Shown here: piece after piece, positions 31,059 through 50,951 of the stretch
Numbering within the stretch: position 1 is the stretch's first letter
Layout: each line of letters opens with the position of its first letter
NCBI GenBank assembly: GCA_900315095.1
Contig: OMXS01000001.1
Coordinates: forward strand, 124,001 to 188,000
Length of the DNA stretch: 64,000 bases
Source: an uncultured Prevotellaceae bacterium
GTDB taxonomy: Bacteria; Bacteroidota; Bacteroidia; Bacteroidales; Bacteroidaceae
Direction of reading: 5' to 3'
Translations under genes and position numbers: made by a program
The notes under the pieces: model-generated
What the model saw: the letters and a program-made list of their open reading frames with translations, nothing else
Told to the model about the DNA's origin: nothing
Databases searched by the model: none

Positions 31059-31693
31059 TTTTTCAGTTTTATAAAGATGATTGTTGCTAATATACCGGAC
31101 AATAGTCCGTAAAAATACCATTCCAATGCCGTTAAAACACCGTTAGGAGGCTTCTCCTTTTGTTCGCTATGCTGCGACGCTGTCGCGGCAAAAGAGCGGC
31201 ACGCCTCCGACAGAAGATCAGCGTAGTCTTGGTGAAGGGTCCTGATGCTGCGCTCGTAGCGCTCGCATTGCAGTTCCAGACTGTCACACGACGCATAAAC
31301 GTAGAGATACTCCGGCTCTGTCGGCGTGGCGGCGAGACGGCTCACCTTAATGCTCGCCTGGCCGTTGCGGTCTGAGTAGCTCGCACCGGGCGGGAGACTA
31401 CGCAGACTGTCCGTCGCTATCGTCAGACTCACCTCCGACTTCGGAACCCGCAACGGCACCGTACGTACCTCCACCAACTCGCTTGCGCTGTCCCGCGCGA
31501 GATGGCGGCCGAGCACGCTCTGGTGCTGTGTCAACGTCTGTTCCCCTCTCTCCGTTACGCTCTTTCGGCGTGTCGCGCATCCGCTCAAGAACAGGGCACT
31601 CATCGCTATAACGGCAACTGTTTGCACTGTCAACAGCCTTGCGGAAACGCGCAACCTCACGCTTGAGAGCGCATAGTTCCTTTCTCGTCTCAT
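31055..31693 (-). CDS. spanin-like lipoprotein with C-terminal membrane helix
   Basis: A 212-residue protein. An Arg-rich start and hydrophobic segment end in the lipobox LFLSGC (Cys near residue 39), so it should be lipidated and go to the outer membrane. The middle has a helical stretch (LELQCERYERSIRTLHQDYADLL). A single transmembrane helix (WYFYGLLSGILATIIFI) lies at the C-terminus. Lipobox plus C-terminal membrane span is the architecture of unimolecular spanins, which disrupt the outer membrane at lysis. Its first 296 nt overlap the upstream gene in another frame, as in Rz/Rz1. Contains one hairpin element (31162-31189). Confidence 0.65.
   Translation of the reverse strand: MRRERNYALSSVRLRVSARLLTVQTVAVIAMSALFLSGCATRRKSVTERGEQTLTQHQSVLGRHLARDSASELVEVRTVPLRVPKSEVSLTIATDSLRSLPPGASYSDRNGQASIKVSRLAATPTEPEYLYVYASCDSLELQCERYERSIRTLHQDYADLLSEACRSFAATASQHSEQKEKPPNGVLTALEWYFYGLLSGILATIIFIKLKK
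31162..31189 (+). repeat. TAT-hairpin element (in the spanin-like gene)
   Basis: GTTCGC, TAT, arm GCTGCGAC, loop GCT, arm GTCGCGGC (one G-T pair). Inside a minus-strand coding sequence; element on the plus strand. Confidence 0.8.
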
Positions 31694-31910
31694 TCAACTC
31701 TTGTTTTAACGGGTCAACAATGTTCTCAATCAATATACGGGTGGCGTTCTCAGTGTTCGTGATCTTCACAGTGTCACTCTCAGCCAATGCCTTCTCCGCC
31801 TCCGCACGAGCCTTCTTCAACGCGCTGCGGATGGTCACAATGCTGATAACGGCACCTACAAGGCTGCCGCCCAACACAACGTTCAATATCTCACTGAGCT
31901 CCATTTCCAT
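31398..31910 (-). CDS. membrane-anchored coiled-coil lysis-region protein (Rz-like or DUF2730-like)
   Basis: A 170-residue protein with an N-terminal transmembrane helix (LNVVLGGSLVGAVISIVTI) and a long coiled coil (KARAEAEKALAESD to LCALKREVARF). A CRYSDECPVLERM motif follows. The last 60 residues are low-complexity and coincide with the overlapping start of the spanin-like gene. It could be an i-spanin partner of that lipoprotein, or a Mu gp25 (DUF2730)-type protein. Lies just downstream of the endolysin gene. Confidence 0.65.
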   Translation of the reverse strand: MEMELSEILNVVLGGSLVGAVISIVTIRSALKKARAEAEKALAESDTVKITNTENATRILIENIVDPLKQELNETRKELCALKREVARFRKAVDSANSCRYSDECPVLERMRDTPKERNGERGTDVDTAPERARPPSRAGQRKRVGGGTYGAVAGSEVGGESDDSDGQSA

Positions 31911-31921
31911 TTCAGTTTCAT

Positions 31922-31949
31922 GTTCACTATGCTGCGACGCCGTCGCAGC
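31922..31949 (+). repeat. TAT-hairpin element
   Basis: GTTCAC, TAT, arm GCTGCGAC, loop GCC, arm GTCGCAGC. It lies 12 nt upstream (minus strand) of the 31910 start codon. Confidence 0.9.
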
Positions 31950-31968
31950 CCTGTCTCTTCAGTTCCCT

Positions 31969-31996
31969 GTCATGTGTGCTGCGACGCCGTCGCAGC
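31969..31996 (+). repeat. TAT-hairpin element (5' part diverged)
   Basis: GTCATG, TGT, arm GCTGCGAC, loop GCC, arm GTCGCAGC. Second of two tandem copies between the endolysin stop and the 31910 gene. Confidence 0.8.
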
Positions 31997-31997
31997 A

Positions 31998-32468
31998 CTA
32001 TTGATTGATTCCTATCTCCTTAAGCCACTTCTGAACGTCAAAGCTCGGACAGGCCTTAGGCGCAACCTCCCTGTGGCCGATGATCTTCACCTTCGGGAAA
32101 CGCTTGTGGAAGTCCAGCACATATTTCTTCAGGGCTTCCTTCTGCGCTGGTGTCCGGGTGTCTTTCGCCTTCTTCGCGTCGTTGGCGTCAACACCGCCTA
32201 CATACACCACATGACGGCTGATGGCGTTGTACCCCTTCGCGCCGTTGGTGATCTCCCAAGGGTCCACCTGGGCGTCCTCGTTGTTCTTTACCAGACGCTC
32301 AACACGGCCGTCCAGGTGGATCATGTCCGTGTAACCCACCTGCTTCCAGCCACGACCACCCTTCTCCACAGGGTCTGTGTGCCATCGGCGTATCTCCGCA
32401 GAGCTTACCTCACGGCCTGGTTTCGTGGCTGTGCAGTGGATTACAAGATATTGAAGAGGCTTGCTCAT
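31998..32468 (-). CDS. N-acetylmuramoyl-L-alanine amidase endolysin
   Basis: A 156-residue amidase_2/PGRP-fold enzyme that cuts the amide bond between muramic acid and the stem peptide, releasing progeny phage. Zinc ligand candidates are His in LVIHCTATKPG (residue 10), and His and Cys in IIGHREVAPKACPSFDVQKWL near the end. The catalytic region includes GYTDMIHLDGRVERL. No signal peptide, so export needs a holin or another route. Start overlaps the preceding stop (ATGA). Placed between head and tail genes. Confidence 0.92.
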   Translation of the reverse strand: MSKPLQYLVIHCTATKPGREVSSAEIRRWHTDPVEKGGRGWKQVGYTDMIHLDGRVERLVKNNEDAQVDPWEITNGAKGYNAISRHVVYVGGVDANDAKKAKDTRTPAQKEALKKYVLDFHKRFPKVKIIGHREVAPKACPSFDVQKWLKEIGINQ

Positions 32469-32722
32469 TTCTTCTCGACTTTAGACGCCTCACCTTCAGC
32501 AGGAGCTTCAGGTGCCGGCTCCTCTGCAGGGGCCTCCTCTGCAGGAGCTTCCACGCCAAGGGTCACGGTGGCGGCCTTCTTGCCTTTGTACTCGGCGCAC
32601 AGGCCACGGTTAACGAGGTCCGCTGCACGCTCTTTGTCCTTCACGTCCAGGATGGTGCCCGGCTCATATACCGTCACATGGTCCTCCTTGTCACGGAAGG
32701 TCTTCTTTACTATCTGTTTCAT
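32465..32722 (-). CDS. gp35-like small head protein
   Basis: An 85-residue protein right after the capsid gene. The N-terminal 45 residues (KKTFRDKEDHVTVYEPGTILDVKDKERAADLVNRGLCAEYKG) match the pattern of small proteins following capsid genes in many transposable and siphoviral phages. The tail is a Pro/Ala/Glu repeat (PAEEAPAEEPAPEAP) likely to be disordered. Probably a capsid accessory protein. Confidence 0.65.
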   Translation of the reverse strand: MKQIVKKTFRDKEDHVTVYEPGTILDVKDKERAADLVNRGLCAEYKGKKAATVTLGVEAPAEEAPAEEPAPEAPAEGEASKVEKK

Positions 32723-32762
32723 AATTTATTAATTTTCAATTTTCAATTCTCAATTGTCAATT
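32723..32762. repeat. AT-rich TTCAATT intergenic repeat
   Basis: Tandem AATTTTC/AATTCTC/AATTGTC heptamers filling the gap between the capsid and gp35-like genes. Similar runs occur at 33836, 34866 and 37488. Confidence 0.7.
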
Positions 32763-33843
32763 ATCCCTCAGGAACAGTAGCTGACGCCTGGTAGCCGCTT
32801 CTGATCACACCGCCCGCATCGGCCTTCTTAGGCAGACACACGAACATGTGGCGGAAGTTTATCTTGTTGCGCTGGTACTCGGGGTCGGTGGCTGCCTCGC
32901 TGAAGTACATCTTCGTAGAGCCTGTGGCCTTGAACACACGGGGAACATAGAACGCAAACGAGCACTGGAACTCTCCCGTAGAAGCTGTTGCGCCAACGGC
33001 CTTCTTCACACCGGCAGTGGTGTACAGCGGGTTGTTCGCAAACTCGTAGATGTTGAAGCCGAACAGCTTGCCTACGGTACCGTCGGCGCGGTTGATGTTG
33101 TACTGCTCCTTGAACACCTGGCTCGTCTCCAGCAGGTCGTTCACATGGTCGGTGCACAATACCAGACGGCGGTTGTCGGCTGGAACCTTCAGCTTGTCCA
33201 GCGCACGCTTCAGGTTGATGATGTCCTGAACGCACAACTTCAAGCGCCCGGTGTCCGCATCGCGCTCGCCGGTGGTCACCAGTACCGGGGTAGTGGCACT
33301 GTTCTGCTGGGCACACAGGGCATGGGCGGCCTTCGCAAACTTCGAGTCGTTGATAGCATTGCCGTGACTCTCCTTCACACGCTGCATCTTGTCATACGAG
33401 ATGGCATACAGCTCGTCGTCGGTCACAGGCGTCACCTTCGTCTGGAACTTGTCCAGCTGGATGGCGATGTCGGCGTCATCAAGGGCCTGCAAAGGAATTG
33501 GATAGGTAGTGTTGTTGATAAGAACGTCAGGGTCAACACCTACCTCCACCAGGTGAATCACGTCGTTGTTCACAATACTCGAACTGTCGGGGATGCCGTC
33601 AAGCCACGTGGCTTCCAAACCACGACGAAGGTACTTCACAAGCTCGCCTGTCCAAATCTCGGTATACACACCGGAAAGGAGACTGCCGGAAGGGACTACG
33701 CTGCCAATGGTGGCGGCAACAACATTTAGACCGACAGCACCCACGGTGGGGTCAACGCCGACCACGGCAGCCATGGTGCTGCCCATCACGCAGTTCACAA
33801 GAACCGCTACGATCATTCCAATAAATCTTTTCATAATTATCAA
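32761..33843 (-). CDS. major capsid protein
   Basis: A 360-residue (357 if starting at MKRFIG) coat protein following the protease/scaffold. After a hydrophobic N-terminal arm, conserved blocks are VYTEIWTGELVKYLRRGLEATWLDGIPD (residues about 60-87), DVIHLVEVGVDPDVLINN and the C-terminal YFSEAATDPEYQRNKINFRHMFVCLP. Size and position fit an HK97-fold capsid of a transposable phage. The N-terminal hydrophobic stretch is a family trait of the arm rather than a secretion signal. Confidence 0.88.
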   Translation of the reverse strand: MIIMKRFIGMIVAVLVNCVMGSTMAAVVGVDPTVGAVGLNVVAATIGSVVPSGSLLSGVYTEIWTGELVKYLRRGLEATWLDGIPDSSSIVNNDVIHLVEVGVDPDVLINNTTYPIPLQALDDADIAIQLDKFQTKVTPVTDDELYAISYDKMQRVKESHGNAINDSKFAKAAHALCAQQNSATTPVLVTTGERDADTGRLKLCVQDIINLKRALDKLKVPADNRRLVLCTDHVNDLLETSQVFKEQYNINRADGTVGKLFGFNIYEFANNPLYTTAGVKKAVGATASTGEFQCSFAFYVPRVFKATGSTKMYFSEAATDPEYQRNKINFRHMFVCLPKKADAGGVIRSGYQASATVPEG

Positions 33844-33864
33844 TTATCAATTTTCAATTATCAA
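33836..33864. repeat. AT-rich TTCAATT intergenic repeat
   Basis: Repeated AATTATC/AATTTTC heptamers between the protease/scaffold and capsid genes, directly upstream of the capsid start. Confidence 0.7.
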
Positions 33865-34866
33865 TTAAAGAATACACTCCATACCGTACTCAGCCTTGTA
33901 CAGTTTCTTGTACTGAGCGGGGTTCTCCTCGCGCAGCTTCGCCAGTTCTTCACTCGGAACGTCACTCAGCTTCTTCCACTGTCCACTTTGCTGCGACGAT
34001 GTCGCTGCACCGCCACTTACAAGGTTACTCAGCTTCACCTGAGCCGACATCGCGCCAAAGGTCTTCTCCAACTCATCGGCACCGATCTTCTTACCGAGGT
34101 CCATGAACTGCTGCTTCTTGTCCTCGCCGATTTTCTTCTCGGCAATGGCAGCGTCAACAATACTCTCAATACGAGCGGCACGCAGCGTGTCGCGTTCCTG
34201 GCGCAGGGTCTCTGCCTCTGCACCGTCTGCCTGAAGCTTTGCCAGCGCAGCCTCGATGGTCGCTTCGTCGGCATCTTTAGGCAAGCCCAACTGAAGGGCT
34301 AACTTCTCTTGATCCATTTGCTTTGGTTTTTGATTTTTGTTAATAATGGTTCCGTATGCTGCGACGCCGTCGCAGCCAAGCAACGGCAACGCCGTCACCT
34401 TTTCAAATCGCATAACTCTCCCCTCGCCCTTTGGAGAGGGGTTAGGGGTGAGGCTCTTCCTTAGCACGATAGCATCGTCGTTAGCGCCGATGTCAACAAG
34501 CGACACCTCAAACAGCTTGCTCTTGCTGATAGTAGGACAGGTCTGACCCTGCACAAGGTGCTTCGGGTCCTCGCTCAGTTCCAGAATGTCAATGCCTACG
34601 CTCACCATCTTCAGACTACCGAACTCCCACTGCTTCTTGCAGCGCTGGCTAAGTTCCGTGGCCTCGTCAAACATCAGTTCGCCGGTAACCTCGGCACCTT
34701 CAACCCTCAGGTCTTTAACATAGCCGATCACCTGACCGCGCTCGTGCATATACAATAGTACAGGGTTACGGTTGTACTGATCCACGTTCATGCCGCTCGT
34801 CAGCACCCTCGTGCCGTAACTGTTCAGACTCTCATTGCTGATTCTTACTCTCTTCGTCTTGCTCAT
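33865..34866 (-). CDS. Mu I-like prohead protease fused to scaffold domain
   Basis: A 333-residue protein starting MSKTKRVRIS (a longer form adds three residues). The N-terminal half is the prohead protease domain, with LLYMHERGQVIGYV (His candidate), GELMFDEATELSQRC and KLFEVSLVDIGAN. The C-terminal half is helical scaffold with KLQADGAEAETLRQERDTLR. It cleaves scaffold and capsid arms during prohead maturation. Three repeat insertions lie in frame: a GC-rich element (LTPNPSPKGEG) and two hairpin elements (GCDGVAAYGT, AATSSQQSG), mostly in the linker between domains. Confidence 0.87.
   Translation of the reverse strand: MSKTKRVRISNESLNSYGTRVLTSGMNVDQYNRNPVLLYMHERGQVIGYVKDLRVEGAEVTGELMFDEATELSQRCKKQWEFGSLKMVSVGIDILELSEDPKHLVQGQTCPTISKSKLFEVSLVDIGANDDAIVLRKSLTPNPSPKGEGRVMRFEKVTALPLLGCDGVAAYGTIINKNQKPKQMDQEKLALQLGLPKDADEATIEAALAKLQADGAEAETLRQERDTLRAARIESIVDAAIAEKKIGEDKKQQFMDLGKKIGADELEKTFGAMSAQVKLSNLVSGGAATSSQQSGQWKKLSDVPSEELAKLREENPAQYKKLYKAEYGMECIL
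33981..34008 (+). repeat. TAT-hairpin element, degenerate
   Basis: GTCCAC, TTT, arm GCTGCGAC, loop GAT, arm GTCGCTGC (one mismatch). Inside the scaffold coding sequence. Confidence 0.65.
34349..34376 (+). repeat. TAT-hairpin element
   Basis: GTTCCG, TAT, arm GCTGCGAC, loop GCC, arm GTCGCAGC. In frame inside the protease/scaffold linker, antisense to it. Confidence 0.9.
34414..34453 (+). repeat. GC-rich CTCCCCTC...GAGGGG element
   Basis: An inverted repeat of CTCCCCT and AGAGGGG followed by GTTAGGGGTGAGG, inside the protease/scaffold gene. It encodes LTPNPSPKGEGR in frame on the minus strand. Confidence 0.8.
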
Positions 34867-34894
34867 AAAGTTCAATGTTCAATGTCAATTATCC

Positions 34895-34922
34895 GTTACC
34901 TATGCTGCGATGCCATCGCAGC
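34895..34922 (+). repeat. TAT-hairpin element
   Basis: GTTACC, TAT, arm GCTGCGAT, loop GCC, arm ATCGCAGC. It lies 29 nt upstream of the protease start; the paired arm change (C-G to T-A) is compensatory. Confidence 0.9.
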
Positions 34923-34942
34923 TGCATGTTTTCTTCGCAAAA

Positions 34943-35012
34943 TTGCGCATTTTATGTCAACCCGCAAAAAAAGTGTGAAACCGTTGCGCACTTCTCTGAA
35001 ACCCTTGCGCAC
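34943..35012. promoter_or_regulatory. phased TTGCGCA repeats in the divergent late promoter region
   Basis: TTGCGCA at 34943, 34984 and 35005. The last two are part of the 16-bp direct repeats TGAAACCGTTGCGCAC and TGAAACCCTTGCGCAC, 21 bp apart. The spacings of 41 and 21 bp keep them on one helix face. The 235-nt gap separates the two divergent late operons, so these are candidate activator sites. Confidence 0.55.
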
Positions 35013-35056
35013 ATTTTTCTCTTAATCGCTGAAAATAGCCAACTTTGCAGAAAACA

Positions 35057-35084
35057 GTCACGTATGTTATGGCTCTGCCATAAC
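35057..35084 (+). repeat. TAT-hairpin element, fully recoded arms
   Basis: GTCACG, TAT, arm GTTATGGC, loop TCT, arm GCCATAAC. Same architecture with changed arm sequence that keeps full pairing, 17 nt upstream of the small terminase start. Confidence 0.8.
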
Positions 35085-35101
35085 TAAAACAACAAAGAAA
35101 C

Positions 35102-35569
35102 ATGAAAAAAACAGAAACAAAAAAATCACTCGCACGCTCTCTCTATATGTCTGGAATGGAGATACAGGAGATCGCAGCACAGGTGGAAACGTCAAGACAG
35201 ACACTGTCCAAATGGTGCGCAGAGGGGGCGTGGAAGGAGGCACGAGCTGCCAAGAACATCTCACGACCGGAACTCGTCAACAAACTGCTCCTCGCAATCG
35301 ACAACCTCATCGCACAGGTCAACGAGTCCGGAGACCCAGAGGCTATCGGGGCTCTCGCAGACAAACTGTCCAAACTCTCGTCAACCATCGAGAAACTCGA
35401 CAAAAAGGCGAACGTCATCGACGCCATAGAGGTATTCATGGCGTTCAACCGATGGATTCAGGACCAGGCATGCTACGACCCGGAGATCACACCGGAACTC
35501 ATCAAGGCAATCAACAAGTACCAGAACAAGTTCCTCATGGAGAAGATGTCTTCACCATCATCTTTATAA
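35102..35569 (+). CDS. terminase small subunit
   Basis: A 155-residue DNA-packaging protein. The N-terminal HTH is visible as LYMSGMEIQEIAAQVETSRQTLSKWCAEGAW (residues 14-44), followed by helical oligomerisation segments (LLLAIDNLIAQVNE, ALADKLSKLSSTIEKLDKKANVIDA). It resembles the DUF1804-type small terminases of Mu-like phages. First gene of the plus-strand head operon. Confidence 0.85.
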   Translation: MKKTETKKSLARSLYMSGMEIQEIAAQVETSRQTLSKWCAEGAWKEARAAKNISRPELVNKLLLAIDNLIAQVNESGDPEAIGALADKLSKLSSTIEKLDKKANVIDAIEVFMAFNRWIQDQACYDPEITPELIKAINKYQNKFLMEKMSSPSSL

Positions 35570-35570
35570 T

Positions 35571-35598
35571 GTCCAGTATGCTGCGACACTGTCGCAGC
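35571..35598 (+). repeat. TAT-hairpin element
   Basis: GTCCAG, TAT, arm GCTGCGAC, loop ACT, arm GTCGCAGC. It lies 22 nt before the large terminase start. Confidence 0.9.
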
Positions 35599-35620
35599 CA
35601 CAATCTCAAAAGGAAACACC

Positions 35621-37216
35621 ATGCCTACAATCAGCGATTTAAAGAAAATACAGGAGGAGTGGAGAGAGCATTGCCGGCAGATACAATCACTCACCGACAC
35701 CAAAAGTCTACAGCGCGAGAACGCCACACAGAAGGAGCAGCGCATACGACGACTCCAGCGTGACTATGCAGCGTTCTGCGAGTATTACTTCCCGCATTTC
35801 CTCACACTGCGCGACAAGGTGACGGGCGAGGCCATACGAACCGTACACAATGCGCCGTTCCACAACGCGGCTGCCAGACTCGTAAAGAACACGCCAAACC
35901 TCAAGGCGGTATTCAAGTGGCCGCGAGGACACGCCAAGTCCACCCACTTCGATATCTTCATGCCGCTCTGGCTCATGTTCCAGCCCAAACGCCTGATTAA
36001 CTTCATGGTCATAGTAGGCAAGTCCGAGGACTCTGCCGACCGTCTCCTGGGCGACATCCAGGCGGAACTCCAGTATAACAAACGCATCATTGCCGACTTC
36101 GGGGTTAAACGCCCGACGGGTCAGTGGACCGAAGGTGAGTTCTCATGTTTCATCTCCCCTCCATACGGGGGAGGGGCTGGGGGTGGGGCTGTCTCCTTCC
36201 TGGCGTGTGGACGTGGGCAGTCACCGCGTGGTCTCCGTAAGCGGGAGGCGCGTCCTGACTATATCGTCATCGACGACCTCGACGACGACGAGCTATGCCG
36301 CAACGAGCGACGTGTCCGTGAACTTACCGACTGGGTGAAGGAGGCACTTTTCGGTGCGCTGGATGTAGGACGTGGCCGCTTCCTCATGGTCGGCAACCTC
36401 ATCTCCAAGACTTCTGTCCTGGCGAATATCTGTGCCACACCAGGAGTGCACGTCTCGACGGTTTATGCCGTCGACAGCGAGGGAAACCCTGTCTGGAAAG
36501 AAAAATGGACCAAGGAGGAGGCACGCGAGTACATGGAGTTCGTGGGCTATCGCGCCTGGAACAAGGAGATGATGCACAACCCCATCGTCGAGGGCACAGT
36601 CTTCCGTCAGGAGTGGATTCGCTGGGCGAAGCGTCCGGCGTGGAAGGAATTTACCGAATTCGTCCTCTACATCGACCCGTCCTGGAAAAGCAAGAAGACC
36701 AACGACACCAAGGCGGCCAAACTATGGGCAAAGCGCAAGACGGAGCTCTGGCACCTCCGCGCTTTCGTGCGCAAGGCATCGGTAGCGGAACTGGTGCGTT
36801 GGTGTTACGACCTCTACGAGTGGAGCCAGGAAGTAGGTATTGCAATACGCTTTGCGATGGAGGCCTCATTCATGCAGGATATGATACTCGACGACTTTAC
36901 TGAGGAGGGCAATCTGCGTGGCTACCAACTCCCCATCACAGGCGACACACGAAAGAAACCGGACAAGTTCCAGCGCATAGAGGCAATCAGCCCGCTATGG
37001 GAGCGCGGCTTCGTGTTCTACGACAAATCGCAAAAGGAAGACCCCGACATGCAAGCGGGACTCGACCAGCTGCTGGCGTTCGAGAAGGGTATGTCAGGAA
37101 ACGACGACGCACCCGACGCCGACGAGGGGGCCATCTATATCCTCCAGAAATCAACCCGGCAACAAACCTATCAACCCAGGTTCGGCAAACGACCAACCTC
37201 AAAAAACATCTGGTAG
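35621..37216 (+). CDS. terminase large subunit
   Basis: A 531-residue DNA-packaging motor. ATPase Walker A is FKWPRGHAKSTH (near residue 93) and Walker B is DYIVIDDLDDDE (near residue 213). The C-terminal nuclease domain includes FVLYIDPSWKSKKTNDTKA and later FAMEASFMQD, acidic metal-site candidates. Between the two ATPase motifs a GC-rich repeat is inserted in frame (ISPPYGGGAGGGAVSFL), which may lengthen a loop. Fits the transposable-phage terminase family (gp28-like). Confidence 0.92.
   Translation: MPTISDLKKIQEEWREHCRQIQSLTDTKSLQRENATQKEQRIRRLQRDYAAFCEYYFPHFLTLRDKVTGEAIRTVHNAPFHNAAARLVKNTPNLKAVFKWPRGHAKSTHFDIFMPLWLMFQPKRLINFMVIVGKSEDSADRLLGDIQAELQYNKRIIADFGVKRPTGQWTEGEFSCFISPPYGGGAGGGAVSFLACGRGQSPRGLRKREARPDYIVIDDLDDDELCRNERRVRELTDWVKEALFGALDVGRGRFLMVGNLISKTSVLANICATPGVHVSTVYAVDSEGNPVWKEKWTKEEAREYMEFVGYRAWNKEMMHNPIVEGTVFRQEWIRWAKRPAWKEFTEFVLYIDPSWKSKKTNDTKAAKLWAKRKTELWHLRAFVRKASVAELVRWCYDLYEWSQEVGIAIRFAMEASFMQDMILDDFTEEGNLRGYQLPITGDTRKKPDKFQRIEAISPLWERGFVFYDKSQKEDPDMQAGLDQLLAFEKGMSGNDDAPDADEGAIYILQKSTRQQTYQPRFGKRPTSKNIW
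36151..36190 (+). repeat. GC-rich CTCCCCTC...GAGGGG element
   Basis: CTCCCCTCC / GGGGGAGGGG inverted repeat followed by CTGGGGGTGGGG, in frame inside the large terminase gene (encodes PPYGGGAGGGA). Confidence 0.8.
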
Positions 37217-37243
37217 TTCACTATGCTGCGACGCCGTCGCAGC
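37216..37243 (+). repeat. TAT-hairpin element
   Basis: GTTCAC, TAT, arm GCTGCGAC, loop GCC, arm GTCGCAGC. Starts at the last base of the terminase gene and ends 15 nt before the next ATG. Confidence 0.9.
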
Positions 37244-37527: not shown

Positions 37528-37941
37528 ATGTTTATCACAGACCAAGACTATAAGGTAGTCATAGGAGAACAGGCACTCAAGGTTATCTCGCAGGTAAGCG
37601 AGAATAACAGAATAAATGCCGAGCAAGAGGCAATAGAGGAGATAAGCTCTTACCTCAGACCAAAATACGACACCAATGCCGTATTCACAAACATAGACAG
37701 AAACAGTCTCATCGTCATGTACGCATGCGACATCGCTCTGTACCACATGGCAGCATCCGCACCGCAGAAAATGGGAATGGAGATACGAAAGGAACGGTAC
37801 GAACGGGCCATCAAGTGGCTCGAGGGAGTACAGGCAGGGAAAATAGTGCCCGACCTGCCACTCGCAACAGACCAAGAAGGAGAACTCATAGGGGGGACTA
37901 TAGTGTGCGGCTCGCAGAAACCGCTAAGACATAACTGGTAG
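37528..37941 (+). CDS. Mu gp36-like protein (DUF1320)
   Basis: A 137-residue protein with the DUF1320 pattern: ITDQDYKVVIGEQAL at the start, AEQEAIEEISSYLRPKYD near residue 30, ...MYACDIALYHMA near 70 and ERYERAIKWLEGVQAGKIVPDLP near 110. In Mu-like phages this family lies next to capsid genes and is a probable head-completion or connector protein. Followed within 45 nt by the portal gene, with one hairpin element between. Confidence 0.85.
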   Translation: MFITDQDYKVVIGEQALKVISQVSENNRINAEQEAIEEISSYLRPKYDTNAVFTNIDRNSLIVMYACDIALYHMAASAPQKMGMEIRKERYERAIKWLEGVQAGKIVPDLPLATDQEGELIGGTIVCGSQKPLRHNW

Positions 37942-37968
37942 TTCACTATGCCGCGACGCCGTCGCAGC
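37941..37968 (+). repeat. TAT-hairpin element
   Basis: GTTCAC, TAT, arm GCCGCGAC, loop GCC, arm GTCGCAGC (one mispair). It lies 17 nt before the portal start. Confidence 0.85.
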
Positions 37969-39303: not shown

Positions 39304-40612
39304 GCACAAACGCTATGCCCAATGGCTCGGCGGTTCTGTATGTTGCGATGCCATCGCAACCTTCGCCCGGGAAGAAGAAATCCGCCAACAGCTCACCAGC
39401 CTCTTCAATGGCATGATGAAAGCCCTCTTCAAAGAAAAGGGCGCAAACCTCCGCATCGATATCCTCACCGAACAGCCGGCACAGGACTTCATCAATGCGC
39501 ATGCTGCAGCACTCGACTCCAGCTTCCAGCAGGTCTCCATGTCTGAGGCCATGCGACAGCGACTCCAGCGTTCCGACTACATCTTCTCTGGCATCAAGAC
39601 CTTCCACGAACTCAATGAGGCATTCCCGTCATTGCTCGATTCTAACGGCAATAGAAAGCCGTTCGAACAGTTCCTCAACGACGTTCAAAAAATCGACCAG
39701 ACATACAACCAGAACTACCTGCGCGCGGAATACAACTTCGTCCACGCATCGGCAACAATGGCGGCTAAGTGGGAGGAGTTCCAGGAAGACGGCGACCGAT
39801 ACAACCTACAGTACCGAACGGCAAACGACGACCGCGTGCGTCCCGAACATGCTGCACTCGACCGCGTCACACTCCCCATGTCTGACCCCTTCTGGGCGGA
39901 ATACTACCCACCAAACGGATGGAACTGCCGCTGCACCGTCGTACAGGTCCGCAAGTCCAAATACCCTGAGACACCACACGACGAAGCAATGGCACTCGGA
40001 GAGGAGGCTACAGGAAAGGACACAAAGGGCATCTTCCACTTCAATCCAGGAATACAGCAAAAGGCCGTTCCAGACTACAACCCATACACCATACGTCGAT
40101 GCCGTGACTGCGACATTGCCAAAGGGAAAGCAACATTAGCTTTCGTACCCGAAAACGAACTATGTGCAGCGTGCCGGCTAATCCATCAAATGGAAAAGGA
40201 CAAAGAACCATCGCCAAGCACACGTTCACGAGTAAAGAGAGCTCAAAAGGATTTGACAAATTGGTATAAACAAGAACTGCCACACGTCATGGATGGAAAG
40301 TTCCCTGCGAGGCGTTTTGAAAGAGACACGAAAGATGGGATAAGGGTAATTATCAATAGAAATTTTTATGATGAGACTATAAACAAGCATCAAGAGGATA
40401 TTCTTTATTCTTTGAAATTAGCCTATGCAAAAAAAGCCCACGAGTTAATCTCTGATGCGGAACTGACAAATCCAAACGAACCGAGTTCAGACCATCCAGG
40501 GCAAATATTCAGGGTTTATGAATATATAGACGACTGCTATCGGGTGGAAATGAAGGTCAGATGCAACAGGGACGGCAACTTCATGCACATTATAAGAGTA
40601 TATAAAAAATAA
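39275..40612 (+). CDS. MuF head-morphogenesis domain with C-terminal nuclease-like domain, read by -1 frameshift
   Basis: A frame with no ATG before 39413 but coding-like sequence from the portal stop on (SHYEGLHKRYAQWLGG, FAREEEIRQQLTSLF). It is best explained as a 445-residue extension of the portal, about 875 residues in all. From 39413 (MMKALFKEKG) it carries the SPP1 gp7/Mu gp30 fold with DDRVRPEHAALDRV and YYPPNGWNCRCTVVQV. A hairpin element lies in frame at 39333-39360. The last 120 residues (ARRFERDTKDGIRVIINRNFYDE...NRDGNFMHIIRVYKK) are AT-richer and resemble barnase/RelE-like toxin domains attached to MuF proteins. Confidence 0.8.
   Translation, partial: RLSPSHYEGLHKRYAQWLGGSVCCDAIATFAREEEIRQQLTSLFNGMMKALFKEKGANLRIDILTEQPAQDFINAHAAALDSSFQQVSMSEAMRQRLQRSDYIFSGIKTFHELNEAFPSLLDSNGNRKPFEQFLNDVQKIDQTYNQNYLRAEYNFVHASATMAAKWEEFQEDGDRYNLQYRTANDDRVRPEHAALDRVTLPMSDPFWAEYYPPNGWNCRCTVVQVRKSKYPETPHDEAMALGEEATGKDTKGIFHFNPGIQQKAVPDYNPYTIRRCRDCDIAKGKATLAFVPENELCAACRLIHQMEKDKEPSPSTRSRVKRAQKDLTNWYKQELPHVMDGKFPARRFERDTKDGIRVIINRNFYDETINKHQEDILYSLKLAYAKKAHELISDAELTNPNEPSSDHPGQIFRVYEYIDDCYRVEMKVRCNRDGNFMHIIRVYKK
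39333..39360 (+). repeat. TAT-hairpin element
   Basis: GTTCTG, TAT, arm GTTGCGAT, loop GCC, arm ATCGCAAC. In frame within the MuF region (encodes SVCCDAIAT). Confidence 0.9.
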
Positions 40613-42100: not shown

Positions 42101-42128
42101 GTTCTGTATGTTGCGATGCCATCGCAAC
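42101..42128 (+). repeat. TAT-hairpin element
   Basis: GTTCTG, TAT, arm GTTGCGAT, loop GCC, arm ATCGCAAC. In the gap 24 nt upstream of the 42077 start (minus strand). Confidence 0.9.
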
Positions 42129-46127: not shown

Positions 46128-46134
46128 GCCTATC

Positions 46135-48171
46135 CTATATATCTCCTATCGGGTCAAAATGCCCATTAACCTCATTAAACCCATCAGACACTTGTCCCGT
46201 CTCTTGAGATGCCATCGCAACTACCTCCAGTTCCTCAGGTTCCGTATGCTGCGACGGTGTCGCAGAACTCTTCATCACACCCAACTCCTCGATAGCATTC
46301 TCCTTCACCCACTTACCGAACTTCGCAATCTTCTTGCGCTGCTCGATATAGTTCACGGTGTCCTCCTCGGTCTGCTCGGCCATCACACGGTTGTAGGTCT
46401 GCACACGCTCGCAGGTGTCAATATACTTGTCACCCTGGAACAGGTATATCTCCTCAGGAAGCACAGGCTCCTCCCCTCGGGGAGGTTGGGAGGGGGTCAA
46501 ATAGTAGGCGGTCACCTGGTAGTCATTCGGCCTGAGCTTCTCCAGCACACTTGTGTCACTCAGCCACCAGTCCTCGTAGCAAACCCTCACCGTCGAGTTC
46601 CTCCTGATACTGGTCTCCACTCGCTCACCGATATAGCGCGCCAGCGTCAGCTTGTCAAGGGGACGCAGCGTCGGATTGATGCGCTCACACAGAACGTCCC
46701 ACCTGGTCATGCCGGGGAACTTCTTCTGGTTGGGGTGCAGCTGGTGGTTCCACTCATAACTGTCACGTCGGTCTTCTGCCACCAGCTGGTCCCAACTGAA
46801 GTATTCCTTGTCTTCGTAGAGTTCGTTGGTCTCGTCGCTCACTTTCTTGTACTCCTGGCGCCACTTGCCCTTGCCGTAGAAACGGCCAATGCCCTCGTGG
46901 TTCTTATGGATCACACTGCGCTTCTTCGCACCGTTCAATGGCTCGGCATACTTCTCCTGTGAGTTCTGGGGGGCGCAGAAGTGAACGAATGGGAAAGCGA
47001 CACCGGCTTGCAGGAAACCGTCTTTGTACTGGGTCATCAAGTGGTTCTCCACCTCGATACCTGCAGGCATTCCCCAACCTTGCTTCTCGATCAGACGGAA
47101 CATGTCGCGGAAGCAATCTACCACCAGACCTTCGTCCTTCTTACGGGCGTAACTGGCACCGACAACGCACTGGCTCACTACGTCGTAGGCATAGTAGGCA
47201 TGGACGCGCTGCTTCGTGTCCTTCAGCTTTCTCGTCAGGTCCACGTCGTCCATCGTAATCTGTGACAAAGAGAAGTCACCGCCGTGACGGTGAACGTGTG
47301 GCATCTGCTCGTGCATGAACGTGGTCCAGCTCATAAGCGAATGCTCTATCAAGGTCTTGTTGGCTGGCTTGTTCAGGTAGTTCGCAATGGTGCTCTCGCT
47401 CAGTTCCTTCGGCTCACCTGTCCGCTTATCCACAAAGTCATCGGGATTCATCAGCTCACCGGTCTTTGGGTCGTAAACGTCCAGTTCACCACACACGAAC
47501 ATATTGTACATTTCCGCAATGTTCGTGTTGAAGGGCTTGTTGGGCAGTATAGCCAGACCGAGTATCAGACGTTCGGTCTTCATGTCCACCTTCCTCGCGC
47601 TCTGGTTGCCGAACTTGCCGCTGATAAGACAGACGTAGCCCTCCTTCTTGTACTCGTTCACCTTCTGACGGAAACGCAACGTACTCGCCGGCAACGTGTG
47701 GCCGTACTCTTCACGCAGGGCTTCAATGGCTTTCGCCATCTGCTCCCAGTTGTACTTGCCGCCAAACAGCTTCTGGGCGGTGGCTGCACGCTCATACAAC
47801 TTGATGCAAGTGTTCAGCACCGAGGCGTTCACCACATACTCCCTGATCTTCTCAGGAGGCAGGTCCCAACCGGCTTGCTCACGGCTGTGGAAAAAACACA
47901 TCGCCTGCTGGTCAACCTCATAGTTCGAGCACACCCAACCCTTCAGATGGGTCAGGTCACCGTCGGGATAGAGGGCTTGGACCTTGGCTCTGTAGTCGCG
48001 CGGAAGACTTTCAACGGCAACAAGCGCATACTGACCAACAGCACCACCGCCACGGCGCACCACGTCGATGCGCTTACGGTTCACCCAGTTCTGGTAGTTG
48101 GATTGGCTTACAATACCACCGTCCACCAATTCCCTGGCGCTTATGCACAACCTGTTTCCGTAATACTCCAT
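46135..48171 (-). CDS. MuA-like transposase
   Basis: A 678-residue (680 from 48177) DDE transposase. The N-terminal DNA-binding domain (LCISARELVDGGIVSQSNYQNW) is MuA-like. The catalytic core has ITMDDVDLTRKLKD (first Asp), AYYAYDVVSQCVVG, IEVENHLM and the Glu of QEKYAEPLNGAKKRSVIHK. The C-terminal domain contains a GC-rich repeat (YLTPSQPPRGEEPV) and two hairpin elements (SATPSQHTEP, VAMASQETG) in frame. It cuts and joins phage ends during replicative transposition and starts the early operon with two small genes upstream. Confidence 0.92.
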   Translation of the reverse strand: MEYYGNRLCISARELVDGGIVSQSNYQNWVNRKRIDVVRRGGGAVGQYALVAVESLPRDYRAKVQALYPDGDLTHLKGWVCSNYEVDQQAMCFFHSREQAGWDLPPEKIREYVVNASVLNTCIKLYERAATAQKLFGGKYNWEQMAKAIEALREEYGHTLPASTLRFRQKVNEYKKEGYVCLISGKFGNQSARKVDMKTERLILGLAILPNKPFNTNIAEMYNMFVCGELDVYDPKTGELMNPDDFVDKRTGEPKELSESTIANYLNKPANKTLIEHSLMSWTTFMHEQMPHVHRHGGDFSLSQITMDDVDLTRKLKDTKQRVHAYYAYDVVSQCVVGASYARKKDEGLVVDCFRDMFRLIEKQGWGMPAGIEVENHLMTQYKDGFLQAGVAFPFVHFCAPQNSQEKYAEPLNGAKKRSVIHKNHEGIGRFYGKGKWRQEYKKVSDETNELYEDKEYFSWDQLVAEDRRDSYEWNHQLHPNQKKFPGMTRWDVLCERINPTLRPLDKLTLARYIGERVETSIRRNSTVRVCYEDWWLSDTSVLEKLRPNDYQVTAYYLTPSQPPRGEEPVLPEEIYLFQGDKYIDTCERVQTYNRVMAEQTEEDTVNYIEQRKKIAKFGKWVKENAIEELGVMKSSATPSQHTEPEELEVVAMASQETGQVSDGFNEVNGHFDPIGDI
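46194..46221 (+). repeat. TAT-hairpin element, degenerate
   Basis: GTCCCG, TCT, arm CTTGAGAT, loop GCC, arm ATCGCAAC (two arm changes). Inside the transposase 3' end. Confidence 0.6.
46239..46266 (+). repeat. TAT-hairpin element
   Basis: GTTCCG, TAT, arm GCTGCGAC, loop GGT, arm GTCGCAGA. In frame in the transposase C-terminus. Confidence 0.85.
46468..46497 (+). repeat. GC-rich CTCCCCTC...GAGGTTGGGAGGGGG element
   Basis: Nearly identical to the copy at 43317; in frame in the transposase (TPSQPPRGEE). Confidence 0.85.
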
Positions 48172-48188
48172 AATCAATACTGTTTAAT

Positions 48189-48216
48189 GTCCCCTATGTT
48201 GCGATGTCATCGCAAC
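48189..48216 (+). repeat. TAT-hairpin element
   Basis: GTCCCC, TAT, arm GTTGCGAT, loop GTC, arm ATCGCAAC. It lies about 18 nt upstream of the transposase start (minus strand). Confidence 0.9.
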
Positions 48217-48401
48217 CTTAAAACACACTTGATGCGCTCATACAGCGGCACCATCAGAATGAAATAAACCACTCCCGCCGCTGCCTCAGCCACGGTCATC
48301 TCTTCTGCACTCCAAGCAAAGCTCAGCACAAACCACATGCACACCAAGCCAAGTACCAAGGCAACCGACATCTTCAATGTCTCTGAATAAATCTTCTTCA
48401 T
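48207..48401 (-). CDS. small two-span membrane protein of the early operon
   Basis: A 64-residue protein with two transmembrane helices (MSVALVLGLVCMWFVLSF and AAAGVVYFILMVPLY) and basic ends. It could be a holin-like or superinfection-related protein; no family recognised. The hairpin element at 48189 overlaps its last codons. Confidence 0.65.
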   Translation of the reverse strand: MKKIYSETLKMSVALVLGLVCMWFVLSFAWSAEEMTVAEAAAGVVYFILMVPLYERIKCVLRLR

Positions 48402-48418
48402 AACTCCACCTTATTAAT

Positions 48419-48446
48419 GTTATGTATGTCGCTATGCCATAGCGAC
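48419..48446 (+). repeat. TAT-hairpin element
   Basis: GTTATG, TAT, arm GTCGCTAT, loop GCC, arm ATAGCGAC. Compensated arms; 18 nt upstream of the 48401 start. Confidence 0.9.
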
Positions 48447-48449
48447 CCC

Positions 48450-48626
48450 TTATCTACTACCTATCTCCATACCGCCATACTGCGACTTCGCAACATGACG
48501 AATCCGACGGGCAAGGTCAGTGTCCTTCTTGAAGTTCAACGCCTTGCTCACCATCTCACGGGTGCAGTGCATCGATGCAGCCAACTTCACCGCATCACCA
48601 CGATCCATTACAATCCTCTTCTTCAT
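48450..48626 (-). CDS. 58-residue early HTH-like protein
   Basis: A small frame, ATG at 48626 and TAA at 48450: MKKRIVMDRGDAVKLAASMHC..., with TREMVSKALNFKKDTDLARRIRHVA. The layout suggests a small DNA-binding protein in the position of Mu Ner, the first gene of the early operon, which represses early transcription. Preceded by AAGGAG. The Ner-like role is inferred from position and size. Confidence 0.7.
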   Translation of the reverse strand: MKKRIVMDRGDAVKLAASMHCTREMVSKALNFKKDTDLARRIRHVAKSQYGGMEIGSR

Positions 48627-48660
48627 AATCTGTTTCTCCTTATTTTTAATAATGTATTTC

Positions 48661-48691
48661 TTGCATTTGTCGCTTTTTTTTCGTACCTTTG
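48661..48691 (+). promoter_or_regulatory. repressor promoter
   Basis: TTG (48661-48663), 20 nt, TACCTTTG (48684-48691), transcribing rightwards to the repressor. Its predicted start (about 48698) lies to the left of the start of the opposing early transcript, so the two RNAs overlap. Confidence 0.7.
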
Positions 48692-48718
48692 TACCGCGTT
48701 CACAATTTAAACACGCCG

Positions 48719-48749
48719 CAAAGATAGTGATTTCTCACGAAACCACCAA
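48719..48749 (-). promoter_or_regulatory. early lytic promoter
   Basis: TTG (48749-48747), 20 nt, TATCTTTG (48726-48719), reading into the 58-residue gene and the transposase operon. The spacer contains GTGATTTCTCAC, an operator-like palindrome. Confidence 0.75.
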
Positions 48750-48762
48750 ATAAAAATCGAAA
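48726..48762. repeat. 37-bp operator repeat, copy at the early promoter
   Basis: Covers the early promoter from its -7 box past its -33. Contains GTGATTTCTCACGAAACC. An exact copy lies inside the repressor gene at 49010-49046. Confidence 0.9.
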
Positions 48763-48775
48763 TAAATCACGATAT

Positions 48776-49492
48776 ATGGCAAAAAATAACGAAACAGCCG
48801 CAACAATTCACGATAGAATAGCCCTTTGTGTTCAAAAATACGGAGAGGGTAAAAATACTGTATTTGCTGAGAAATTAGGAGTTAGCGAAGGAAATATCCG
48901 CGGATATATTAAAGGTGTTGTTCCTAAAGCAGATGTTTTGGAGAATATCGTGAGAACTTACGATATTTCACCTGAATGGCTCTTGACAGGTAGGGGAGAT
49001 ATCGCTATAAGTGATTTCTCACGAAACCACCAAATAAAAATCGAAAAAAATGATGAAGAGGACTCTCATTTTATAGCAAAACCCGCAAAAGACTCTAAAG
49101 AAGGCATCCCACTCATACCTCTCAGCGCAATGGCAGGGGCACTCAAAGGGGAACAAACAGTGCTCGAGTATGAGTGCGAGCGGTATGTGGTACCAGCATT
49201 CACAGGGGCAGACTTCCTCATGCCCGTAAAGGGAGACAGCATGAGCCCAACATATCTCTCCGGAGACATCGTGGCATGCCAGAGAGTACCCATGAGCGAC
49301 ATCTTCTTCCAATGGAACAAACCATACGTCCTCGACACCAAACAGGGCGCCATCATCAAACGCATCAAACCAGGATCCGACAAACAACACGTCCTCATCG
49401 TGTCAGACAACACACAATACGACCCCTTCGAGCTCACATACTCCGAAATCTATGCCGTCGCACTCGTCATCGGAATCATCCGCCTCGAATAG
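48776..49492 (+). CDS. S24-family (CI/LexA-like) phage repressor
   Basis: A 238-residue lysogeny regulator. N-terminal HTH: TVFAEKLGVSEGNIRGYIKG (residues 29-48), and YDISPEWLLTGRG at 62-74. The C-terminal self-cleaving domain has the Ala120-Gly121 site (LSAMAGAL), nucleophile Ser155 (VKGDSMSPTYLSGD) and Lys195 (GAIIKRI), so it should be inactivated by RecA after DNA damage. Residues 79-92 (SDFSRNHQIKIEKN) are encoded by an exact 37-bp copy of the early promoter region, in the hinge. Confidence 0.92.
   Translation: MAKNNETAATIHDRIALCVQKYGEGKNTVFAEKLGVSEGNIRGYIKGVVPKADVLENIVRTYDISPEWLLTGRGDIAISDFSRNHQIKIEKNDEEDSHFIAKPAKDSKEGIPLIPLSAMAGALKGEQTVLEYECERYVVPAFTGADFLMPVKGDSMSPTYLSGDIVACQRVPMSDIFFQWNKPYVLDTKQGAIIKRIKPGSDKQHVLIVSDNTQYDPFELTYSEIYAVALVIGIIRLE
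49010..49046. repeat. 37-bp operator repeat, copy inside the repressor gene
   Basis: Identical to 48726-48762, 284 bp downstream, within the hinge-coding part of the repressor. Confidence 0.9.
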
Positions 49493-49517
49493 TTTACTTA
49501 TCAAAATATTCTGTAAC

Positions 49518-50453
49518 ATGTCAAAACCTAAAAAAATCATACTTAGGGCTTTCAAAGTAGAAAATAACGATCCCAATTACGGGAAAAGTCCGATCCTTAA
49601 TTTGCTTGGGACAAAACTTGAGAATAGCCAAATGGCGGAGGAAAGGCGAATCTTGCTCAATCAAGATGATCCTAATGAGGAATCTGACTTGATTGCTGAT
49701 TTTGACGTCTCTCGCAAAGATGTGTTTATATTTGGAACTATGATAAGGGTAATGGCATCGAAAGGTACTCCCAATCTTCCCGACGACTTATTCAATCAAA
49801 AGAAAATTCCTTTTAATAATCTAAGCAAATTGGAACTGAAAGAGAAATTTATCTATAAATCTCATTTCTATTTTGCTACTGATGGAAACTTCCTAATAGT
49901 TAACCTCCCTTCAAATAGAACAATAACGGCATTTCAAGCATATATAAATGAATACCTAAAAGCAGAAAGGAAAAAACATCTATTTGAGTTCACTCCCCTG
50001 ATTGTCGCAACGCCCGATACCAAAGTGTCCAACATCAAGACCATTAAATTTAGGGACTCTGAAGTAAGGTTGCCGGCAAAGGAAAACACTTCTGTTTCAC
50101 AAAGTTCATTTAGAGCAAAAGTGAAGAATTTTAAGGAGGAACTGCTAAGAGAACTGCTTGGCGATGCCCCTGATTTTGATAAAATATTAGAAGAAGATTT
50201 GGTTTCTGCAGAACTTTTAATTAAATTTGCATCGAAAAAGACTGATGACCCACAAAAGTATTTGGGAGCAATATTAAAACCTATTGCCGATACTGATAAC
50301 ATTGAAATAAAAACCAATTCAGGAGGAACCATTAAAGGATCCACTTTGCAAAAGACAAAAGAGGTTGAAATAAGTATTACAGAATCTGATATGATTTCTG
50401 AACCGGAATTGTTCCAAGCCATGGAGACTTTCCTGAATGAATTGAATAATTGA
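49518..50453 (+). CDS. soluble component of a Rex-like lysogen-expressed pair
   Basis: A 311-residue protein starting MSKPKKIILRAF (the frame is open 22 codons further up, overlapping the repressor). Acidic and Lys-rich, without signal peptide or membrane span. Text such as IFGTMIRVMASKGTPNLPDDL and IVNLPSNRTITAFQAYINEYL gives no family I can name with certainty. It follows the repressor in the same direction and is coupled (1-nt gap) to a four-span membrane protein, like RexA with RexB in lambda. More AT-rich than the phage core. Confidence 0.65.
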   Translation: MSKPKKIILRAFKVENNDPNYGKSPILNLLGTKLENSQMAEERRILLNQDDPNEESDLIADFDVSRKDVFIFGTMIRVMASKGTPNLPDDLFNQKKIPFNNLSKLELKEKFIYKSHFYFATDGNFLIVNLPSNRTITAFQAYINEYLKAERKKHLFEFTPLIVATPDTKVSNIKTIKFRDSEVRLPAKENTSVSQSSFRAKVKNFKEELLRELLGDAPDFDKILEEDLVSAELLIKFASKKTDDPQKYLGAILKPIADTDNIEIKTNSGGTIKGSTLQKTKEVEISITESDMISEPELFQAMETFLNELNN

Positions 50454-50454
50454 C

Positions 50455-50877
50455 ATGAAACCGGTTTACATATATGCCGTCTGCATAGTGATAACAATTG
50501 TCTTATCTGTGCTTTTCCCTGATTTCCATATTGGGGAAAGTGCAGCTAATACTTTGTATTCGATCACCGGCATTATGTTTTCTATCGGCTTAAGTCTGAC
50601 AGTCATTTCAAATACTGCAGGAGTAAAAAATAAAGATACGAAAAAAAGCATCAGGAGAGACATTAAAACAACAAGAAACCATTTCATTGTGTCTTTTTTG
50701 TTGGCATCTGTCACTTTCTTCATGTATCTTGTAATTCCTCCACTGAACCTGTCTTTTTTGAACAGAAGTTGTGGTATATTAGTCATCCAAGGGGTGTTCA
50801 TTGCATACTTTGTATATAACTTTATCAATATACAAAAATTCAATGAGCGAATCGAAGACGCTACTACAAGTATTTAA
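50455..50877 (+). CDS. RexB-like four-span membrane protein
   Basis: A 140-residue protein with four transmembrane helices (residues about 4-20, 34-51, 76-98, 104-123) and a basic loop (KNKDTKKSIRRDIKTTRN). RexB is a 144-residue four-span inner-membrane protein encoded with RexA after cI in lambda. The match here is in arrangement and topology, not proven sequence homology. Probably mediates superinfection exclusion through membrane depolarisation. Confidence 0.6.
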   Translation: MKPVYIYAVCIVITIVLSVLFPDFHIGESAANTLYSITGIMFSIGLSLTVISNTAGVKNKDTKKSIRRDIKTTRNHFIVSFLLASVTFFMYLVIPPLNLSFLNRSCGILVIQGVFIAYFVYNFINIQKFNERIEDATTSI

Positions 50878-50923
50878 AAACTGCCACGGCAAAGGACTGT
50901 AGGCGCACTCCCGCTTTCTCATG

Positions 50924-50951
50924 GTTAGGTATGTCGCGATGCCATCGCGAC
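50924..50951 (+). repeat. TAT-hairpin element
   Basis: GTTAGG, TAT, arm GTCGCGAT, loop GCC, arm ATCGCGAC. Compensated arms; in the non-coding left-end region. Confidence 0.9.

Follow-up and report, generated by a model that had tools for sequence, protein, structure and literature searches.

A REP-type family of tagged hairpins in a Mu-like prophage and its Prevotellaceae host, and its association with a divergent RAYT-like enzyme

The DNA analyzed here, a 64,000-nucleotide stretch from an uncultured Prevotellaceae bacterium (assembly GCA_900315095.1, contig OMXS01000001.1, positions 124,001 to 188,000; hereafter the window), carries a Mu-like prophage in which a 28-nt hairpin with a conserved 5' tag recurs 17 times. 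An original prediction, made from the letters alone, had likened these hairpins to the repetitive extragenic palindromic (REP) elements that RAYT or IS200-type enzymes mobilize, with translational control as an alternative. The likeness is supported by four observations: the hairpin is dispersed through the host genome and its genus, it occupies different sites in related phages, a RAYT-like gene of the host carries it, and this gene family co-occurs with it. In phages, the copies are also locked to one strand, which follows GC skew. We consider it likely that REP-type hairpins are spread in trans by a host RAYT-like subclass, on the single-stranded DNA of replication forks. The placement of all copies on one strand, the host-chromosome copies and the link to replication polarity are points that the original prediction did not contain.

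Seventeen copies of one hairpin with covarying arms

All 17 predicted copies were found at their listed starts, every one on the + strand. The consensus unit comprises a GT(T/C)C-N-(G/C)TAT tag followed by an 8-bp stem, whose first base is mostly G, and a 3-nt loop. Twelve copies pair at all eight stem positions and four at seven; the copy at 46194 is degenerate, with six pairs and TCT replacing TAT, and was not picked up by a scan of both strands of the window. That scan returned one extra good copy, at 12600, outside the prophage and with a tag at both ends, the rest of its matches being reverse echoes or hairpins with merely six pairs. As a check on chance frequency, a tagged-hairpin finder applied to positions 13901-51300 gave 15 copies, all on the + strand and all within 31-51 kb; 60 Markov-1 shuffles of the same segment gave none. 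The tail half of the prophage, 13.9-31.1 kb, yielded no copy with this finder, all 17 copies lying in 31-51 kb; the hairpin-free half (13900-31100) may reflect recent recombination, or greater exposure near the Mu left end.

The arms were predicted to vary yet stay paired, and alignment of 27 copies (23 distinct) from the window, the host and one relative bears this out: 97.3% of cells are paired, two-sided changes occupy 28 cells versus 1 for one-sided changes, and seven of the eight stem pairs have changed on both sides. None of 500 shuffles reached the covariation score of the 23 distinct sequences. Hairpin formation partly guided the choice of copies, so that these pairing figures are conditioned on that choice and do not constitute an independent test of the fold. 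The pattern fits the prediction that selection acts on a folded single strand. One-sided (G-U) changes are almost absent, which suits DNA better than RNA.

Hairpin copies in the window (pairs out of 8; ORF, open reading frame):
31162-31189, + strand: copy 1, 7/8, within a - strand ORF
31922-31949, + strand: copy 2, 8/8, intergenic
31969-31996, + strand: copy 3, 8/8, TGT replacing TAT, intergenic, 47 bp past copy 2
33981-34008, + strand: copy 4, 7/8, within an ORF similar to prohead protease (S78)
34349-34376, + strand: copy 5, 8/8, in frame within the same prohead protease (S78)-like ORF as copy 4
34895-34922, + strand: copy 6, 8/8, intergenic
35057-35084, + strand: copy 7, 8/8, divergent arms GTTATGGC, 17 nt upstream of a + strand ORF
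35571-35598, + strand: copy 8, 8/8, 22 nt upstream of the terminase ORF
37216-37243, + strand: copy 9, 8/8, first base is the last of the terminase stop codon; several relatives lack it
37941-37968, + strand: copy 10, 7/8, first base is the last of a stop codon, upstream of the portal ORF
39333-39360, + strand: copy 11, 8/8, near or upstream of the start of a head-morphogenesis ORF
42101-42128, + strand: copy 12, 8/8, 29 bp present here and not in five related loci
46194-46221, + strand: copy 13, degenerate, 6/8, within the MuA-like ORF
46239-46266, + strand: copy 14, 7/8, within the MuA-like ORF
48189-48216, + strand: copy 15, 8/8, intergenic, adjoining the start of the MuA-like ORF
48419-48446, + strand: copy 16, 8/8, arms GTCGCTAT, intergenic
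50924-50951, + strand: copy 17, 8/8, arms GTCGCGAT, within a - strand ORF with no assigned function
12600-12636, no strand assigned: host copy outside the prophage, tag at both ends

The element is dispersed in the host genome and its genus

Searches of the host and its relatives, which the original prediction had proposed, revealed that the element extends well beyond the prophage. The exact main-arm pattern matched the host genome 19 times (14 forward, 5 reverse, with two sites on both strands), and the reversed control gave 0 matches; a covariance model returned 38 host matches at E<=1e-3, two sites again being counted on both strands. Across 61 genomes the element occurred in 17, comprising 17 of the 37 from the same genus and 0 of the 24 from other genera. 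Under stricter filters, a larger genus set contained it in 95 of 201 genomes, with none reported in 106. Arms differ among species and the architecture is kept. The element has the short hairpin, conserved 5' tag and many dispersed copies of a REP/RAYT system (REPtron) in the broad sense. Some host copies lie within genes, in frame, and read VCCDAIAA; one of these genes we take, from its sequence rather than from a family search, to be hutI-like.

Two further features of the copies were seen in passing. A VCCDAIA(A/T) peptide arises from same-frame copies in or near genes of otherwise unrelated sequences (loci L018, L006 and L007, and the window copy at 39333). Hairpins also occur in tandem, as an array of six spaced 66 bp apart in one genome (G009:C23:52511-52868) and as a 73-bp tandem pair in the host (G000:C26:107915).

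A divergent Y1/HUH protein family carries the hairpin and co-occurs with it

The search for a RAYT or Y1 enzyme, likewise proposed, identified in the host both a classical RAYT, considered below, and a member of a divergent Y1/HUH family that we term A4. The route to A4 began from weak Y1 matches in relatives, around which 20 regions were fetched; the hairpin was not found within any of these 20 regions, and a profile (A3) of one group among them led to the core subfamily, of which the host member lies at G000:C26:71497-72522. A4 proteins are ~345 amino acids long (about 340-355) and combine a RAYT-like N-terminal Y1 domain with a conserved, unnamed C-terminal stretch of ~150 residues. They bear the motifs MPDH(L/F)H and YLxDNPRR, and seven of eight aligned members keep the catalytic tyrosine. 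Pfam Y1_Tnp matches three of four A4 proteins at E 0.02-0.09, the sole Pfam match outside Y1_Tnp being CbiG_C (E 0.18, in one of the four). The NCBIfam REP transposase model NF047646 matches all four at 34-47 bits (E 2.8e-8 to 2.6e-12), under its curated cut-off of 80, and hhalign aligns the A4 family with classical RAYT at E=1e-8 across the HUH and Tyr motifs. A4 thus has the HUH and single-Tyr Y1 domain, related to TnpA_REP, of a REPtron enzyme. A sequence search of the PDB gave five transposase entries, all weak (E 0.35-1.2), and PADLOC returned no match for three proteins.

Examination of the A4 loci shows that the gene is flanked by, or contains, the hairpin, as REPtron enzyme genes do with their own. 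Among the first 20 loci, each of the nine core members (one a fragment) has a hairpin that lies inside the gene or no more than about 150 bp from it, and the 11 members of other subfamilies show no hairpin of the GTYC-N-STAT type within 300 bp; three loci of the latter group carry other hairpins, a CCGCGGAT hairpin in L308 and L322 and a dissimilar one in L316. A search of the 201 genomes returned 30 loci, of which 25 have a relaxed-tag hairpin that is in frame and lies between HUH and Tyr, and 27 have one in the A4 gene or within 300 bp. By the same hairpin rule, the background is 79 of 2335 random 1650-base host windows (about 3%) and 16 of 2597 240-base windows.

The two also co-occur between genomes. 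A4 was present (E<=1e-60) in 91 of the 201 genus genomes, and both enzyme and element were found in 67, the enzyme alone in 24, the element alone in 28 and neither in 82 (odds ratio 8.2, p=1e-11). In the core subfamily, delimited at E<=1e-140 by a cut-off chosen after the list was seen, the element is present in 35 of 40 genomes. Mean copy number per genome is 10.8 with a core enzyme, 3.4 with other A4 members and 1.4 without A4. The arms themselves correspond in several genomes: the 5' arm of the in-gene hairpin of the host is identical to that of 8 of the 17 prophage copies, the in-gene arms of G036 match 8 of 10 sampled dispersed copies, and in-gene and dispersed arms are alike in G169.

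A4 relatives were confirmed in none of 34 candidate stretches of viral contigs and in none of 50,697 phage records, and a plasmid search gave one distant match. Since phages appear not to carry the enzyme, they would be colonized in trans.

Orientation in phages follows GC skew

The strand lock of the window copies extends to other phages. A pattern search of viral sequences gave at least 120 stretches with the main arm pattern and 21 with a second arm pattern, and 136 new loci were read; 107 of these have no homology to 13 proteins of the window prophage, and 19 proteins sampled from the set include other terminases, portals and an integrase. In the 29 homologous loci, copies stand 62:1 in the frame of the window phage. 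Among 79 terminase-related loci, several of them near-duplicates, 59 of 60 covariance-model matches lie on the terminase strand, and the sixtieth is a reverse echo of a copy already counted. Orientation is uniform in 62 of the 63 viral loci with at least two oriented copies (193 copies).

The strand in question is the C-rich one, which holds 255 of 269 copies overall (the 17 of the window included) and 212 of 213 where |GC skew| exceeds 0.05. When the 136 loci were grouped into 76 clusters, 48 of the 49 clusters informative at |skew|>0.05 had their copies on the C-rich strand, as did 195 of the 196 copies taken singly; the one copy on the G-rich strand is at L543:3871. Unambiguously oriented copies alone stand 192:1, and control tags without a hairpin 54:34. 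Loci whose genes run in both directions carry 112 of 112 copies on the C-rich strand at |skew|>0.05, of which 57 are sense and 55 antisense. Within one mixed locus, L556, skew passes from about -0.15 to +0.28 where hairpin orientation flips. Orientation therefore follows GC skew, not transcription. The turn of skew and orientation in L556 (4606-7179) adjoins a phage integrase gene and could be the site of an origin or of a junction between phage and host.

Comparison with PHROGs identified the window prophage as Mu-like, with MuA-, MuB- and Gam-like proteins, a repressor, a portal, a capsid and a tape measure. The genes relevant to polarity and to the phage comparisons are:
35621-37216, + strand: terminase large subunit, whose homologues are annotated as terminase; anchor of the phage comparisons
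45147-46022, - strand: MuB-like DNA transposition protein (phrog_296, E=1.4e-46)
46135-48177, - strand: MuA-like transposase (phrog_310, E=1.3e-49)
48776-49492, + strand: phage repressor (phrog_4, E=6.2e-29)

Genes run on the + strand at 35.1-40.6 and 48.8-50.9 kb and mostly on the - strand elsewhere, with the hairpins on the + strand throughout. Mu replication is taken to start at the repressor end. Assuming that the repressor and MuA mark the Mu left end, this end lies near 48-51 kb, and taking the G-rich strand as the leading strand, the GC skew of the prophage (-0.122) and Mu polarity both place a fork moving toward low coordinates; the tag strand would therefore be the leading-strand template.

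Copies in host chromosomes show a weaker lean in the same direction. In a first set, copies on the C-rich and G-rich strands stood 29:15 by local skew and 7:1 by contig skew read by hand. The enlarged set comprised 60 windows of at most 20 kb each from seven genomes, and some of these windows may be prophage; all its 69 copies stood 48:21, divided as 19:14 at |skew|<0.02, 22:3 at 0.02-0.04 and 7:4 above 0.04. With a cut-off of |skew|>=0.02, chosen afterwards, copies stand 29:7 (p=3e-4) and loci 22:5 (p=0.0015). Because host skew is mostly below 0.03 and replichore calibration, on one complete relative, was only fair, we regard host polarity as weak evidence.

Site occupancy varies between related phages

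A polarity this strict could also come from a replication or packaging motif, such as a primosome- or primase-loading site or a KOPS- or Chi-like sequence, kept by selection in one fork orientation. This is the main rival explanation, and compensatory arm changes would suit it as well. A motif of the KOPS or primosome-site type is expected across related replicons; comparison of related prophages at each site, which the original prediction had suggested, instead revealed variable occupancy. A model match (E<=0.01) is present in just 19 of the 79 terminase-related loci, so that most do without, as do the 106 genus genomes with no reported element. In the group L177-L192, whose terminases are 80-86% identical, 15 of 16 loci have no tagged hairpin and the hairpin of L192 is of another type; the covariance model adds one weak match, in L182. 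Filled sites differ from one related phage to another. At 42101 the window is longer by a clean 29 bp than five related loci, three of them of one lineage, and the empty counterpart already has GTT; divergence at the other sites prevents exact placement of an insertion junction. Downstream of the terminase stop, hairpins with different arms occur in four phages and none in four listed relatives. Recurrence at this one orthologous spot could reflect a conserved function, in line with a selected motif. With occupied sites that vary, in-frame copies inside host genes and a distribution that follows the host RAYT-like gene, we judge a selected polar motif improbable as the source of the family.

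Control of the flanking phage genes at the RNA level, through translation, termination or mRNA stability, fares worse. Proximity to start codons, which the original prediction attributed to most copies, holds in a mechanical ORF list for 9 of 17, which lie 10-30 nt upstream of a start codon; 5 of these 9 are oriented against the downstream mRNA. About six copies had further been predicted to lie in frame inside genes; six were found within ORFs, to which the 39333 copy may add a seventh. Sense copies outnumber antisense ones 163:106 in the full set of 269 (62:32 in one-direction loci), as RNA control would have it, and against this stand the near-equal sense and antisense counts in strongly skewed loci of mixed direction, the 116 of 269 copies that fall within mechanical ORFs, the ratio of one-sided to two-sided stem changes, and an Rfam search of 30-52 kb that gave no match at E<=0.1. 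The alternative of translational control is accordingly disfavored, and RNA-level control in general appears very unlikely.

Equally hard to sustain is mobilization of REP-like hairpins by the second Y1 protein found in the host, the classical RAYT (L020). This protein is the sole host match to PF01797 at E<=1e-3 and reaches the NF047646 cut-off (80.2 versus 80), but the inverted repeat at its flank, which starts GTAGGGGCG, is of another kind and is found likewise beside its 83%-identical relative. Within the genus, PF01797 matches occur in 11 of 17 genomes with the element and in 10 of 20 without, so that the two show no association, and we rejected this protein as the mobilizer.

A model for replication-coupled mobility in trans

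Spread by the host A4 enzyme is the reading that we prefer, and it would proceed as follows. A host-encoded RAYT-like HUH/Tyr protein would mobilize the 28-nt hairpins in trans, recognizing the hairpin as single-stranded DNA and cutting near the tag; the cut hairpin would then be joined, at replication forks, to other single strands. Fork polarity would cause new or surviving copies to share one fork-relative orientation, and the lock would arise either at insertion or through loss of the opposite orientation. The outcome in phages would be the almost complete strand lock, the C-rich strand that bears the tag being the putative leading-strand template. Replication of its DNA in hosts of this kind would account for the 17 copies of the Mu-like prophage.

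Several observations weigh against this model. No A4 match was found in 28 of the 95 genomes with the element, and no element in 24 of the 91 with A4. In-gene tags are often degenerate; in-gene arms are unlike the sampled dispersed arms in G009 and G001, and in G175 they match 0 of 5 dispersed copies of one sample, two copies in another sample matching. The protein of L310 has no catalytic Tyr. One copy in the homologous viral loci is opposite to the other 62, the host lean is slight both above |skew| 0.04 and below 0.02, and the overall sense excess and the shared post-terminase spot, noted above, also count here. A GT[AG]G foot is the hallmark of most described REPs, and the foot of this element, mostly (G/C)TAT with GTYC upstream, is not the GT[AG]G of classical GTAG/GTGG REPs. 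Finally, an active tag strand would occupy the leading-strand template, opposite to the habit of IS608. IS608-type enzymes use the lagging-strand template (PMC6006769, in excerpt), and the active strand would therefore be the complement of the tag strand, or orientations exposed on the lagging template would have been lost.

A broader proposal, which we advance tentatively, is that a domesticated host RAYT acts on any replicon, and that phages of many kinds keep a permanent record of the direction in which their forks move, the tag strand being the leading-strand template. Either insertion into that strand or steady excision or breakage of lagging-template copies would then produce the lock, and the in-frame hairpin within the enzyme gene might serve as a cis-regulator or a sequence reference. 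Were excision or breakage of lagging-template copies to occur, the RAYT would be a strand-selective force on phage genomes.

Relation to described REP systems

Comparisons with published systems refer to excerpts of the papers cited. The REP/TnpA_REP REPtrons (PMC6006769) share with the present family a short 5'-tagged hairpin, many dispersed copies and an enzyme gene flanked by hairpins; the foot is GT[AG]G there and (G/C)TAT with an upstream GTYC here. The closest parallel is REPtron subclass 2.4, which has both 'double foot' REPs and in-frame REPs located between HuH and Y (PMC6006769), as is also seen here. The enzymes differ: that of subclass 2.4 is apparently 194 amino acids long and bears NH[IFV]H, WQ and YIxNNP, whereas A4, at about 340-355, has DHxH, YLxDNP and an extra C-terminal stretch, and does not conserve the WQ pair (W in 2 of 8 members, Q in 0 of 8). 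The WQ pair has been linked to GTAG recognition, and RAYT subclasses with a large C-terminal domain are described as not REP-associated (PMC6006769). A4 would thus add to the RAYT-like proteins a subclass whose C-terminal stretch is unnamed and whose tag is new.

REPSm of Stenotrophomonas maltophilia (PMC8266576) resembles the element in its perfect 8-bp stem, 3-nt loop and foot tetranucleotide, which is GTAG there and (G/C)TAT, with GTYC further upstream, here. GTAG and CGTC REPs (PMC3733652) likewise occur as intergenic and in-gene hairpins, some in frame or supplying stop codons, and differ in their tags; the excerpted text of that paper mentions neither Prevotella, Bacteroides nor phage, and Bacteroidetes once. 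IS200/IS605 elements (IS608; PMC6006769) have in common an HUH/Tyr enzyme, a hairpin with a guide tetranucleotide and a replication-strand preference. No insertion sequence unit was seen here, and the tag strand is apparently the leading-strand template. The single A4 match of the host at E<=1e-60 and its hairpins dispersed without an A4 gene would speak against an enzyme gene that moves as a unit between paired ends. PINSR of Prevotella intermedia (PMC4755523) is also a dispersed Prevotella repeat, set apart by its description alone, as it is 188 bp long with no terminal inverted repeats. Our literature search found no report of REP/RAYT elements in Prevotella phages among titles and abstract starts, nor, among titles, abstract starts and passages, the GTYC-N-STAT tag, the A4 enzyme subclass or the phage strand lock.

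The mechanisms of REP dissemination have been called poorly understood (PMC8266576). With variable sites, an orientation that follows skew in 48 of 49 clusters and one co-occurring enzyme family, replication-coupled single-strand mobility of REPs becomes directly testable, and phage genomes would offer a dense natural record of it.

Other hairpin systems beside Y1 genes

Two further kinds of repeat accompany Y1 genes in these genomes. The host classical RAYT (REP_Tyr_transpos), whose best named match is in a Prevotella record at 83% identity, has upstream of it, at L020:1220-1350, an inverted repeat GTAGGGGCGTACC...GTGCGCCC, several copies of which lie in the flanks of its 83%-identical relative (L021); these repeats make up a further REP system, of the GTAG type, within the one genome. 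In another subfamily of the divergent Y1 family (G022 and G028; loci L308 and L322), CCGCGGAT/ATCCGCG hairpins lie in or beside the gene and possibly represent a third tag and hairpin type.

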